This document shows, piece after piece, positions 47,068-53,111 of a stretch of 64,000 bases of DNA; the stretch's first letter is position 1, and the number at the start of each line of letters is the position of its first letter. The stretch covers positions 18,806 to 82,805 of IMG/VR virus record IMGVR_UViG_3300020370_000002; one strand, given 5' to 3'. Under the pieces are notes generated by a model, which did no database searches, was not told the DNA's origin, and was given only the letters and a program-made list of their open reading frames with translations. The position numbers and the translations under genes are program-made. This DNA is from a virus.

Positions 47068-47670
47068 TTATTTTTTCGCAACTCTAATTATTGTCTTGAG
47101 GGCTGACTTGATTCCCTTCTTTTTGTTGTTGTAATCAAGAACGTGCCATTCACTATCTACTACTCGTTCCTTGAGAAGCGTCATGCTATCGTAGTACGAC
47201 AGTGCATTTTCGTCATTCTCTGAGAACTTCCAGTAGGTGAGAGGAGAGTTTTTTCTGTTGTCTATTCTAGCTCTCTGCTCTTCCTCTGTGATGGACAGCC
47301 ATAGCTTGATAATCTTCACGTCTTGGAAGGATTCCCACATCTTGTAGCCTTGCAAAAACTCTCTGTACTGATCTTCTGTGCACCAGTTGTTGAGTCTCTG
47401 AACCATAGCTCGTGAGTACCAAGACCTGTCATAGAATACGATCTGACCTTTTGCTGGCATCTTTGTTTGCCAATGACCTAGCCAGTTCTCCATAGTTTGT
47501 TTACTTGGCTTTGTTGAAGGGACAACAGAGTACCATGCAGGGGATAAGTATTGGGTCAAAGCTCTAATCGTACTTGACTTTCCAGCCGTGTCTCTGCCTT
47601 CTAATACTACTGCAATGCCTTTGTTGTTGTTTGCTGCGATCTGATTTAGTTTTGCTAATAATTTTTTCAT
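47068..47670 (-). CDS. Polyphosphate kinase 2-like enzyme
   Basis: A protein of 200 residues. Walker A EGRDTAGKSS lies at 24-33. VPSTKPSKQTMENWLGHW fits the PPK2 segment KP-x-x-E-x-x-x-x-Y-x-x-RW. Walker B FYDRSWYSRAMV lies at 79-90, with the family DRSWY box. PPK2 enzymes make nucleoside di- or triphosphates from polyphosphate. It is shorter than usual PPK2 (about 230-300). The ATG is 6 bp after the -10 box with no ribosome binding site, so the mRNA should be leaderless. Confidence 0.8.
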   Translation of the reverse strand: MKKLLAKLNQIAANNNKGIAVVLEGRDTAGKSSTIRALTQYLSPAWYSVVPSTKPSKQTMENWLGHWQTKMPAKGQIVFYDRSWYSRAMVQRLNNWCTEDQYREFLQGYKMWESFQDVKIIKLWLSITEEEQRARIDNRKNSPLTYWKFSENDENALSYYDSMTLLKERVVDSEWHVLDYNNKKKGIKSALKTIIRVAKK

Positions 47671-48572: not shown

Positions 48573-48883
48573 ATAAGTTCCTTAATTGAGGTTTCTAGCT
48601 TCTTTAGTGTTGCTTTCGGTGCTTTCTCCAAACCCAGTAGACTCTCCACTTCAATTCCAAGATCATCAGCGATATTTGAAACGATCTCCACTTTTGTAAC
48701 AGGTAGTTCTCCAGTCTTGGTCTTGTAGATTTCACGTCTGTATACTCCTTCTCTTGATAGCTTGCCGATTATTGACTTAATACTCTTACTCAGCTCTTTA
48801 GCTAAAGCTTCTACTGTTTCCCTATTCGGGTTGTTTTGATAGGCTTCAACTATGTGTTTTGTCTGTTCCTCATTGTAGTTCAT
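48569..48883 (-). CDS. GcrA-like HTH protein, paralogue
   Basis: A protein of 104 residues. The HTH unit (TVEALAKELSKSIKSIIGKL, SREGVY) is followed by a second domain (TKVEIVSNIADDLGIEVESL, LKKLETSI). Both parts match the proteins at 49859 and 52711. It overlaps the upstream gene by 14 bases, with AAAGG before the ATG. It is probably a DNA-binding regulator or architectural protein. Confidence 0.72.
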   Translation of the reverse strand: MNYNEEQTKHIVEAYQNNPNRETVEALAKELSKSIKSIIGKLSREGVYRREIYKTKTGELPVTKVEIVSNIADDLGIEVESLLGLEKAPKATLKKLETSIKELI

Positions 48884-49280
48884 CCATTTTACCTTTCAAA
48901 AATTTTGTTAATGTATCCATAAACTGCTGAACTTCAGCCATTGGATTCTCACTCTTCTTGGCTAATTCTTCAGCAGGAGGCGCTTTATCTAGGGCTATAG
49001 AGATATCTCCCGTATCTCCATCACAGGTGGTTATTACTTGAGTACAGTATTCTAACATTCCTGCGGGGATATTTTCTGCCCCAATCGCAGCCGCATATTG
49101 CATTACAAGATCGTCATATCTAACCTGTAACTCTCCACATTCTTTTTCTAGCTCACGAGAAGCCACAAAGAGTTTTGTTAAATTTTCAAATCTATCTGTA
49201 ATCTGCGCTTGCAAATTATTTATTTCTGCTGCAATAGTTTCAACTTTCCTTTCGATTGGAAACTGTACTACATTGCTCAT
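48870..49280 (-). CDS. Coiled-coil hypothetical protein of 136 residues
   Basis: The N-terminal 60 residues are helical (VETIAAEINNLQAQITDRFE, SRELEKECGELQVRYDDLVM). The middle is acidic and the end amphipathic (VQQFMDTLTKFLKGKMDEL). A GGGAG site precedes the ATG. No family is recognised. Its operon partners are the HTH protein and MazG. Confidence 0.6.
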   Translation of the reverse strand: MSNVVQFPIERKVETIAAEINNLQAQITDRFENLTKLFVASRELEKECGELQVRYDDLVMQYAAAIGAENIPAGMLEYCTQVITTCDGDTGDISIALDKAPPAEELAKKSENPMAEVQQFMDTLTKFLKGKMDELQ

Positions 49281-49425
49281 CTACTTCTCCCTGTATTTCT
49301 TTTACCCACATAGGTATAAATTTCCTGTCAGGATCTCTACTTAAGATCGGACAGGGTATAAACTCTGACTCTTTTCTATTAAAAACGGAGTCACGCACAA
49401 ATGGGTGCTTCGGTTTTCTTAACAT
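49240..49425 (-). CDS. Hypothetical protein of 61 residues
   Basis: It starts MLRKPKHPFVRDSVFNRKES and contains IPMWVKEIQGEVDEQ. I chose the ATG downstream of the predicted transcription start (near 49450); earlier in-frame codons would lie inside the promoter. The ribosome binding site is weak. It overlaps the next gene by 41 bases. Function unknown. Confidence 0.5.
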   Translation of the reverse strand: MLRKPKHPFVRDSVFNRKESEFIPCPILSRDPDRKFIPMWVKEIQGEVDEQCSTVSNRKES

Positions 49426-49456
49426 AAAATTCTCACTTAAAATTTTGAATGTGTAT

Positions 49457-49485
49457 ATTATCTCACGAAATAGCACTTATGTCAA
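49457..49485 (-). promoter_or_regulatory. sigma70-type promoter
   Basis: TTGACA (49485-49480), 17 bp, GATAAT (49462-49457), with AAAATAGTTC before the -35. It lies directly after the terminator of the structured RNA and restarts transcription for the MazG/HTH operon. Confidence 0.8.
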
Positions 49486-49506
49486 GAACTATTTTCGTTC
49501 AGGCAT

Positions 49507-49539
49507 AAAAAAACCGCCGTTAGAGTGCACCAACGGCGG
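49507..49539 (-). terminator. Strong Rho-independent terminator of the minus-strand RNA
   Basis: A perfect 8-bp stem, CCGCCGTT with AACGGCGG, and a 10-base loop are followed on the minus strand by seven T residues. It is the best terminator in the window. Confidence 0.93.
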
Positions 49540-49858
49540 CTGGGAGTGGTTTAAGTTATGTAGCTACTAGAGCCGTCCCGAGGCGTAAGCTCGACCATAA
49601 TTCTCTGGGGGTGTGGTACGAATCCCACCTGACACATTCCGTTCCGTCTGTCAGGCAACGCACCACAACTAGGAATACATGCACTCAGAGCTGTGGCTTT
49701 ATGGTGGGGGCTGCGGCGAGGCACCAGTTTTACCGCGATCTTTACTGTCTTATCACACTATCTAGCTGGGCATGACCCAAGAAGTATTGCGTCCCTGACT
49801 TCCCCCATAAACTGGAGGTCGATTGATTTGCGAGAGGTCGACCAACTCTCGGGTGCGT
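49540..49858 (-). ncRNA. Candidate structured RNA co-transcribed with an HTH gene
   Basis: This segment lies between an HTH stop codon and the terminator, with no plausible gene. Plus-strand coordinates of perfect helices: CGAGAG/CTCTCG (49831, 49846); GAAGT/ACTTC (49781, 49798); TGGG/CCCA (49767, 49776); TGGTG/CACCA (49702, 49722); CCACA/TGTGG (49663, 49692); CCTGACA/TGTCAGG (49628, 49649); GTGG/CCAC (49613, 49625); CGAG/CTCG (49579, 49590) inside AGAG/CTCT (49569, 49603). It is richer in G+C than the phage average. It could be a long structured 3' untranslated region, an sRNA precursor or a decoy. It is not recognised as tmRNA, RNase P RNA or 6S RNA. Confidence 0.6.
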
Positions 49859-50224
49859 TTAGGATACTGCGTCAAGCAGAGTCTGTAGATCACCAAAGCC
49901 AGCTTTGTTTAGGCTGACAAACTCGACACCAAGTTTGGCTTCGATGTCGGCTACCAAATCAGCTTTTCTCACCTGAGGTGGACGCTTGGTAGGCTTAGGC
50001 TGGGCAACGTATACACCCAGAGCGGAGAGCTTAGCGATAACGCTTCGCTCGGTTTTCCCAAACTGAGCTGCAAGTGCATTGACAGTCTCACGGTTGGGGG
50101 ATTCCTCGTAAGAAGCTATCATAGTGTCGATAACGTCCTGAGGGTAATTACTTGATTTAACAGCAGTCATAGTCATACTATTTGTTCCTCCGAATAATTT
50201 TTTTAATGTTTCTCTCAATTTCAT
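49859..50224 (-). CDS. GcrA-like HTH protein upstream of the structured RNA
   Basis: A protein of 121 residues from the leaderless ATG, or 105 from the internal MTMTAVKSSNYPQ start that has GGAGG 10 bases before it. The HTH unit is TVNALAAQFGKTERSVIAKL, SALGVY. The second domain is RKADLVADIEAKLGVEFVSL. Two in-frame starts, one leaderless and one with a ribosome binding site, may give two products. The stop is followed directly by the structured RNA. Confidence 0.72.
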   Translation of the reverse strand: MKLRETLKKLFGGTNSMTMTAVKSSNYPQDVIDTMIASYEESPNRETVNALAAQFGKTERSVIAKLSALGVYVAQPKPTKRPPQVRKADLVADIEAKLGVEFVSLNKAGFGDLQTLLDAVS

Positions 50225-50231
50225 AATACAT

Positions 50232-50260
50232 ATTATATTAGAATTTACCATTTGAGTCAA
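50232..50260 (-). promoter_or_regulatory. sigma70-type promoter inside the end of the peptidase gene
   Basis: TTGACT (50260-50255), 17 bp, TATAAT (50237-50232), 7 bases, ATG. The -35 and spacer are coding sequence for the last residues of the upstream protein, whose TAA stop touches the -10 box. Confidence 0.8.
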
Positions 50261-52506: not shown

Positions 52507-52711
52507 AAAAATATCCTATAATGCCGAGTGAATTTAATATGATTAAGTTGTAGAGCTTACCAGAGGTTGCTTGTATAGTCAACAGCGCAAGCCCAACAAT
52601 CGCAAGAAATTTTCCTGCATTATAATCAATGATAAAGGGAGCCAAGCCCATGCAGATCGTACCGATCCACGCGAGCCATTCAACCAAAGCCTGACGGCTT
52701 TGAGCATCCAT
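52490..52711 (-). CDS. Membrane protein of 73 residues
   Basis: It has two or three hydrophobic segments (WLAWIGTICMGLAPFII, FLAIVGLALLTIQA, NLIILNSLGIIGYFYAL). The ATG overlaps the HTH stop as TAATG. It overlaps the HAD gene by 17 bases. A transporter- or holin-like role cannot be decided. Confidence 0.65.
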   Translation of the reverse strand: MDAQSRQALVEWLAWIGTICMGLAPFIIDYNAGKFLAIVGLALLTIQATSGKLYNLIILNSLGIIGYFYALYF

Positions 52712-53001
52712 TATTGGATGCTCATTAGAAGGGCTGAGAGAGAGCGCATTGATGCGCCTTCTAGACCTTCAAGGCTTTCACCTTGCAAAGCCTTTTCGAT
52801 GGCTTGCACCATCTCGGCTTTGGTTGAGCGTGAGGCTTTCGCCTTTGGCTCTGCTTTTTTGTAAAGCCCAAGCATAACGGCTTTTGAAATGACAGAACGG
52901 ACGGGAAGCCCGAATTCTGCCGCGAGATCATCAGCGACAGAGCGCGTGATGGGTGAGCGATCGTCCATAATGGCGATCATTTTAGTAGTGTAGTTTGACA
53001 T
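52711..53001 (-). CDS. GcrA-like HTH protein, paralogue at the head of the GC-richer operon
   Basis: A protein of 96 residues. HTH unit VADDLAAEFGLPVRSVISKA, VMLGLYKK; second domain TKAEMVQAIEKALQ, MRSLSALLMSI. The chosen ATG has AAGGAGG 6 bases upstream; longer readings would cross the promoter. It is the first gene of the operon and is probably its regulator. Confidence 0.72.
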   Translation of the reverse strand: MSNYTTKMIAIMDDRSPITRSVADDLAAEFGLPVRSVISKAVMLGLYKKAEPKAKASRSTKAEMVQAIEKALQGESLEGLEGASMRSLSALLMSIQ

Positions 53002-53043
53002 ATGAGCCTCCTTAGGCGTGTCGGTTAATTTTAATATGCAAGC

Positions 53044-53072
53044 ATTATCGCACATTTTTGCGAAAAAGTCAA
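53044..53072 (-). promoter_or_regulatory. sigma70-type promoter of the GC-richer operon
   Basis: TTGACT (53072-53067), 17 bp, GATAAT (53049-53044), preceded by AAAATAATGC. The leader of about 36 bases carries AAGGAGG. Confidence 0.78.
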
Positions 53073-53111
53073 GCATTATTTTATATTTCTTTTGCATATA
53101 TTTCTTGCCCC

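Follow-up and report, generated by a model that had tools for sequence, protein, structure and literature searches.

The stretch of DNA analysed here (hereafter, the window) comprises 64,000 nucleotides of an 82.8-kb virus record, and the DNA polymerase of this phage is 45% identical to those of Aeromonas phages such as AhSzw-1. On the minus strand of the window, a small helix-turn-helix gene (HTH1) is followed by a non-coding RNA, a coiled-coil gene (MSN) and a second helix-turn-helix gene (HTH2). The features of this locus are listed below in the direction of transcription.

50232..50260, minus strand: sigma-70-like promoter of HTH1, TTGACT-17-TATAAT (consensus scan, 11/12 matches)
49859..50224, minus strand: HTH1, small helix-turn-helix protein, PHROG 1725-like (AlphaFold: three-helix core, mean pLDDT 77)
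49,858-49,505, minus strand: non-coding RNA, directly 3' of HTH1, with the terminator as its end
49831..49851, minus strand: P0 hairpin CGAGAG/CUCUCG, between HTH1 and D1; identical in the related contigs L002 and L007
49704..49807, minus strand: D1, conserved three-helix domain of ~100 nt (82.6 bits, E 3.6e-19)
49802-49806/49706-49710, minus strand: D1 helix P1
49797-49799/49747-49749, minus strand: D1 helix P2
49789-49791/49754-49756, minus strand: D1 helix P3
49733-49736/49713-49716, minus strand: D1 helix P4
49792-49796 (ANNGA), 49750-49753 (AUAA) and 49738-49746 (AGUAAAGAU), minus strand: near-invariant unpaired segments of D1
49628..49655, minus strand: P5 hairpin CCUGACA/UGUCAGG; two pairs changed on both sides relative to L002
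49591..49622, minus strand: P6 stem-loop around CCCAGAGAAU; two pairs changed on both sides relative to L002
49505..49541, minus strand: intrinsic terminator of the RNA; two stem pairs changed on both sides relative to L002
49457..49485, minus strand: promoter of the next gene, TTGACA-17-GATAAT, outside the RNA (consensus scan)
48870..49280, minus strand: MSN gene, coiled-coil, predicted long helix
48569..48883, minus strand: HTH2, paralogue of HTH1, following MSN in the syntenic block

No other gene is apparent in the window sequence between the HTH1 stop at 49,859 and the terminator, whose 12-bp stem (49,541-49,512, minus strand) is followed by a T run. This agrees with a preliminary description of the stretch as gene-free and closed by a strong terminator. 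The raised G+C content noted there was also recovered, at 0.526 in positions 49,500-49,849 versus 0.34-0.44 in most neighbouring 350-nt intervals. The accompanying claim of a structured RNA is right, though not on a count of helices alone. The folding energy of the minus-strand RNA is -119.4 kcal/mol versus -110.6 ± 5.5 kcal/mol in shuffles (z -1.61), a value matched by 5 of 100 shuffles, and z is -0.40 for the plus strand. Because the energy is only weakly low, counting helices by eye is insufficient, and helix number and folding energy by themselves are not beyond chance; it is conservation and covariation in relatives that lift the RNA above chance. A conserved protein is disfavoured by length changes of any size and by stop codons: no shared open frame spans the whole RNA, and most frames of both copies contain stops.

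The list of open reading frames prolongs HTH1 to a TTG at 50260. That TTG is the -35 box of the promoter, and the ATG at 50,224 lies so near the promoter (50,260-50,232) that the HTH1 mRNA would be leaderless or nearly so. A consensus scan of the minus strand found no promoter-like site between HTH1 and the RNA in the window; the HTH1 promoter, which the preliminary description had taken as the source of the transcript, is indeed the only one seen upstream in this phage. Because no other promoter-like site is present, we infer from the sequence that the window RNA is co-transcribed with HTH1, and a 3'-derived RNA would be the natural reading here.

A conserved domain in a family of phage RNAs

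Five contigs encode close relatives of HTH1. The RNA is kept in L002 and L007, and comparison of these with the window reveals compensatory changes in the P3 hairpin, P5, P6 and the terminator stems. The L004 and L005 contigs stop short of the RNA locus and are thus outside the comparison. A lack of conservation in homologous phages, which the preliminary description had named as evidence against its proposal, was not what these relatives revealed. L003, which at first seemed to be without the RNA, carries D1 ~0.5 kb downstream with a promoter of its own, and L006 has an RNA-like locus without D1 at the same place (L006:4880-5130), the later part and terminator of which are common with the L003 RNA.

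Further members were sought with patterns and with R1, a covariance model of the ~100-nt domain built from 11 sequences. Applied to 16 records, R1 recovered the known copies and a new, out-of-sample copy in the L003 record (61.1 bits, E 8.6e-14), with no D1 copy in three of the records; a covariance model search of the window returned a single copy. Early narrow patterns over viral contigs matched none and then one contig. A conserved-core pattern over IMG/VR returned 108 stretches, among them 10 new members, the others being chance matches by reading. A viral pattern that left P2-P4 free and fixed part of the unpaired core gave 83 stretches, with 27 loci at ≥51 bits (including the L003 record) and the remaining 45 of 72 new loci at ≤24 bits. 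Another viral pattern, giving 11 stretches, found known members only, and 13 of the 14 stretches from yet another were rejected by reading as chance matches. Altogether, D1 is present in 38 other contigs of uncultured phages, for a total of 39 loci and 32 distinct sequences.

Prokaryote contigs gave no match with a first pattern and at least 119 stretches with a second, the best of the 80 searched scoring 18.7 bits. Freeing three AGUAAAGA positions in the pattern yielded no further member among the 77 new loci searched of at least 119 stretches (best 18.2 bits). No match to the RNA was found among 50,697 phage records, and blastn with the RNAs of the window, L002 and L035 or with D1 of L189, L174 and L143 returned no related phage record, the listed matches being short and weak. 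One such match in Prochlorococcus phage P-SSM4 was discarded because it falls within a coding gene and the covariance model does not recognise it. The Rfam comparison suggested in the preliminary description places the RNA in no known family, with no match to the RNA at gathering score in the window or in the 37 other loci scanned. A literature search of titles and abstract openings, with preprints and most subscription papers outside its reach, returned no description of a D1 RNA. As judged by these searches, the D1 RNA family is uncatalogued and matches nothing searchable here; structured phage RNAs of unknown function are already known as a kind, and the D1 family itself is new.

The fold of D1 was obtained with RNAalifold from 11 sequences, predating any model, and comprises P1 (6 pairs), P2 (3), P3 (3) and P4 (4), with six pairs changed on both sides. 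Across the 39 loci, 96.1% of cells are paired, and 12 of the 16 pairs are altered on both sides with pairing kept (107 such cells). The covariation score is 0.557 versus 0.168 ± 0.015 in shuffles, with 0 of 500 shuffles as high, for an alignment of 32 distinct rows that is fitted to the structure and for shuffles that ignore relatedness. Sliding the helix partners in this alignment lowers pairing to ≤48.7%. Since the alignment is structure-fitted and the shuffles ignore relatedness, RNAalifold was also run on 32 sequences aligned by MAFFT alone, with no fitting to the structure, and recovered P1-P4 with 11 of 15 pairs changed on both sides. The covariation among homologues that the preliminary description had proposed as a check is thereby borne out. 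The unpaired segments ANNGA, AUAA and AGUAAAGAU are almost unvarying, an invariance that arises partly by construction, as the search patterns fixed part of them. D1 is a conserved RNA fold in this phage family, and the window copy has both its four covarying helices and its near-invariant unpaired core.

Gene order, promoters and terminators

HTH1, the RNA, the coiled-coil gene and HTH2 follow one another in a conserved order. Profile searches seeded with the window proteins (E up to 1e-4; the HTH1 and HTH2 profiles also find each other) identified a same-strand HTH protein ≤2 kb upstream of D1 in 27 of the 39 loci and an MSN homologue downstream of the RNA, on the same strand, in 32. Eight of the 12 loci without an upstream HTH hold <750 nt of upstream sequence, and two of the seven without a downstream MSN (L086 and L141) hold <500 nt downstream; the true exceptions to the gene order are L188, L202, L174, L167 and probably L144. 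Among the structural neighbours of the predicted HTH1 and MSN folds, none is significant (best E 0.54 and 0.72), and tblastn with HTH1 of L022 and MSN of L196 returned no phage record. No partner of the RNA was found, the searches with the two neighbouring proteins being uninformative. A third HTH paralogue is located in the window at 52711-53097 (minus strand), ~3 kb upstream of the RNA, and several relatives have an additional HTH gene 4-5 kb upstream.

By consensus scan, a sigma-70-like promoter ending 10-33 nt before D1 is present in 30 of the 39 loci; those without one are the window, L007, L188, L202, L174, L167, L144, L149 and L169. Because of this promoter, and because it can sit several genes away from HTH1, the D1 RNA is an independent RNA gene in most members. 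The preliminary view of the stretch as a 3' region of the HTH gene is therefore the natural reading in the window, where the RNA occupies a slot that houses an RNA gene in relatives, and too narrow for the loci with a promoter of their own. Since the window and L007 copies lack such a promoter, the RNA in this phage could be just an mRNA tail. It might then be an HTH1 3' untranslated region with the mRNA-protecting or HTH-sponging role raised in the preliminary description, in keeping with the short spacing of ~52 nt from the HTH1 stop to D1 in these two copies and with the frequent presence of HTH1 upstream; however, the promoters in 30 loci and the possibility of intervening genes separate the RNA from the HTH1 mRNA there, and we consider this explanation improbable. 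Bacterial small RNAs derived from 3' untranslated regions are similarly placed at the 3' end of an mRNA and use its terminator, whereas D1 relatives have their own promoters and the RNA is larger and modular. According to the consensus scans, reliance on the promoter and terminator of the mRNA, with no promoter of its own, occurs in the window and L007 only.

A terminator is present in 31 of the 39 loci, counting a weak one in L144. Leaving out this weak site, at 752 nt, the first terminator lies between 51 nt 3' of D1 (L149 and L169) and 586 nt (L065). Outside D1 the RNA is highly variable, yet eleven long members have a conserved predicted fold there, with 71 pairs, 29 of which are changed on both sides (a count made without a shuffle control). 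In L144, L149/L169 and the L188 group, which lack a promoter directly upstream, D1 lies by reading inside the RNA or in its 3' part, and the L149 RNA measures ~330 nt from promoter to terminator by reading. A second motif, AUUGGUA...UUCCUAUG, is found 3' of D1 in L168, L189, L200, L179 and L164 and on its 5' side in L144, as though modules had been reordered. The gene context is different at L188:7123-7205 and in L202, L174 and L167, where D1 precedes, by ~25 nt, a small ORF that has a ribosome-binding-like site and, by reading, begins MDGVTIALI.

These distances bear on whether D1 is a cis-acting sensor, either riboswitch-like or a protein-binding leader, that controls the terminator and hence the downstream genes. 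A near-invariant unpaired core with covarying helices is a typical aptamer trait, and the short spacing to the terminator in L149/L169 would suit such a device, as would the position of D1 directly before the small ORF in the four loci of the L188 group. In the other loci with a terminator (L144 left out), however, it lies 175-586 nt beyond D1. Moreover, in the window and in the loci read (e.g. L035, L086, L180 and L003), a separate promoter-like site for the next gene lies past the terminator, and an alternative pairing between D1 and a terminator was not noticed by eye. We therefore regard a cis-acting role as unlikely, although the L188 group and L149 keep it among the explanations to be weighed.

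tmRNA is a ribosome-rescue RNA. At the Rfam gathering score, a permuted tmRNA (RF04321) is present in 16 of 37 loci (2/8 + 6/14 + 8/15), and in 14 loci, several of them near-duplicates, it shares the strand of D1 and is at most 0.8 kb away. In all nine loci with a readable upstream HTH1 (e.g. L168:10369-10618 and L140:6135-6329), the start of the RF04321 match falls on the final 1-2 nt of the HTH1 stop codon; L132 lacks the upstream part, and the gene context differs in the four L188-type loci. The slot immediately 3' of HTH1 is taken by a permuted tmRNA in relatives and by the D1 RNA in the window, and the whole record to which the window belongs (G000) has no RF04321 match. A tRNA is located 55 nt upstream of D1 in six loci; in the window itself, neither a tRNA nor a tmRNA lies near the RNA. 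That the permuted tmRNAs start at the HTH1 stop codon points to a common RNA island and suggests that D1-type RNAs and permuted tmRNAs are connected with translation. Just upstream of the L144 RNA, a T-arm-like stretch ending in CCACCA (L144:95-130) looks by eye like the 3' end of a tRNA or tmRNA.

Known large RNAs and a proposed role for D1

Among the known large RNAs, GOLLD, ROOL, RNase P RNA and permuted tmRNA are examples of families to which the RNA could belong as a divergent form. Its location in phages, its size of up to ~600 nt and the nearby tRNA/tmRNA genes would fit, and it contains GGGGAAGUC and ACAGNAA, which are reminiscent of RNase P motifs. Yet the absence of any Rfam match at gathering score extends to relaxed thresholds: none of these four RNAs matched it in the window (E up to 10), in L086 and L200 (E up to 5) or in L144 (E up to 3). 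The four matches returned for positions 49300-50000 at E up to 10 are all far below gathering scores, and no RNase P RNA model is among the matches to this stretch. As the permuted tmRNA, moreover, is present separately in the same phages, we judge a known large RNA in disguise to be very improbable. Resemblances to RNase P, a group I intron, SRP and a cobalamin riboswitch, limited to short motifs, were likewise rejected, no Rfam model having matched.

Besides the small RNAs from 3' untranslated regions, two kinds of known RNA come close to the D1 RNA. One report (PMC12286853) describes GOLLD and ROOL as large phage RNAs that encode no protein and have no assigned function, that often lie close to tRNA genes and that form homo-oligomeric RNA-only assemblies. 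The D1 family is also phage-borne and often near a tmRNA or tRNA, the window having neither nearby, but its RNA has no Rfam match at gathering score and is smaller (~50-590 nt from D1 to terminator); furthermore, the conserved region is 3' in GOLLD, whereas D1 is mostly at the 5' end of its RNA. Permuted tmRNA RF04321 shares the gene block, and in relatives fills the place that the D1 RNA has in the window; the two are nonetheless non-homologous, with no RF04321 match to the D1 RNA and both present as neighbours in 14 loci.

Based on these comparisons, we propose that D1 marks a modular non-coding phage RNA family, whose window member would be the 3' part of the HTH1 transcript, probably trimmed and acting in trans with D1 as its docking domain; we hold this reading to be reasonably likely. 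The conserved fold, the family, the gene order and the promoter and terminator patterns on which it builds are computed. In most family members, the RNA would be its own transcription unit. In this phage, it would be produced by transcription from the HTH1 promoter, stopping at the terminator at 49,512. It would probably be trimmed off the HTH1 coding part to ~300-350 nt, with its 5' end closed by P0 or P1, and the trimmed RNA may then act in trans. The unpaired core of D1 hardly varies, while its helices are free to covary and the attached modules are exchanged, extended or lost; D1 would therefore most likely be where one conserved partner docks, which may be the ribosome or a protein of host or phage. 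What differs between phages would be carried by the variable modules.

More tentatively, and as a possibility that we would not yet call probable, the RNA might represent a new class of large modular machine in which D1 docks in trans on a conserved host part, perhaps the ribosome or RNA polymerase, and carries exchangeable effectors. It would belong to an RNA island with the permuted tmRNA and the HTH genes, in which the slot at the HTH1 stop would serve to install different structured RNA genes.

We know of no job for large phage RNAs such as GOLLD and ROOL. Since a single covariance model suffices to recognise its ~100-nt domain and some natural versions are small (~330 nt, L149), the D1 family would be a far easier handle on the role of large phage RNAs during infection. 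Phages of this family seem to be equipped with an RNA tool.

Two-piece tmRNAs and glutamine riboswitches have been described in marine myophages (PMC9004378), the consulted part of that report mentioning no further RNA beside them. The window carries a glutamine riboswitch aptamer (RF01739; 59136-59190, plus strand, 50.8 bits) and no tmRNA, and the Rfam matches elsewhere in the window are only a tRNA and this riboswitch. At 47068-47670 (minus strand), the window encodes a Polyphosphate kinase 2 family protein (Pfam E 1.5e-39).
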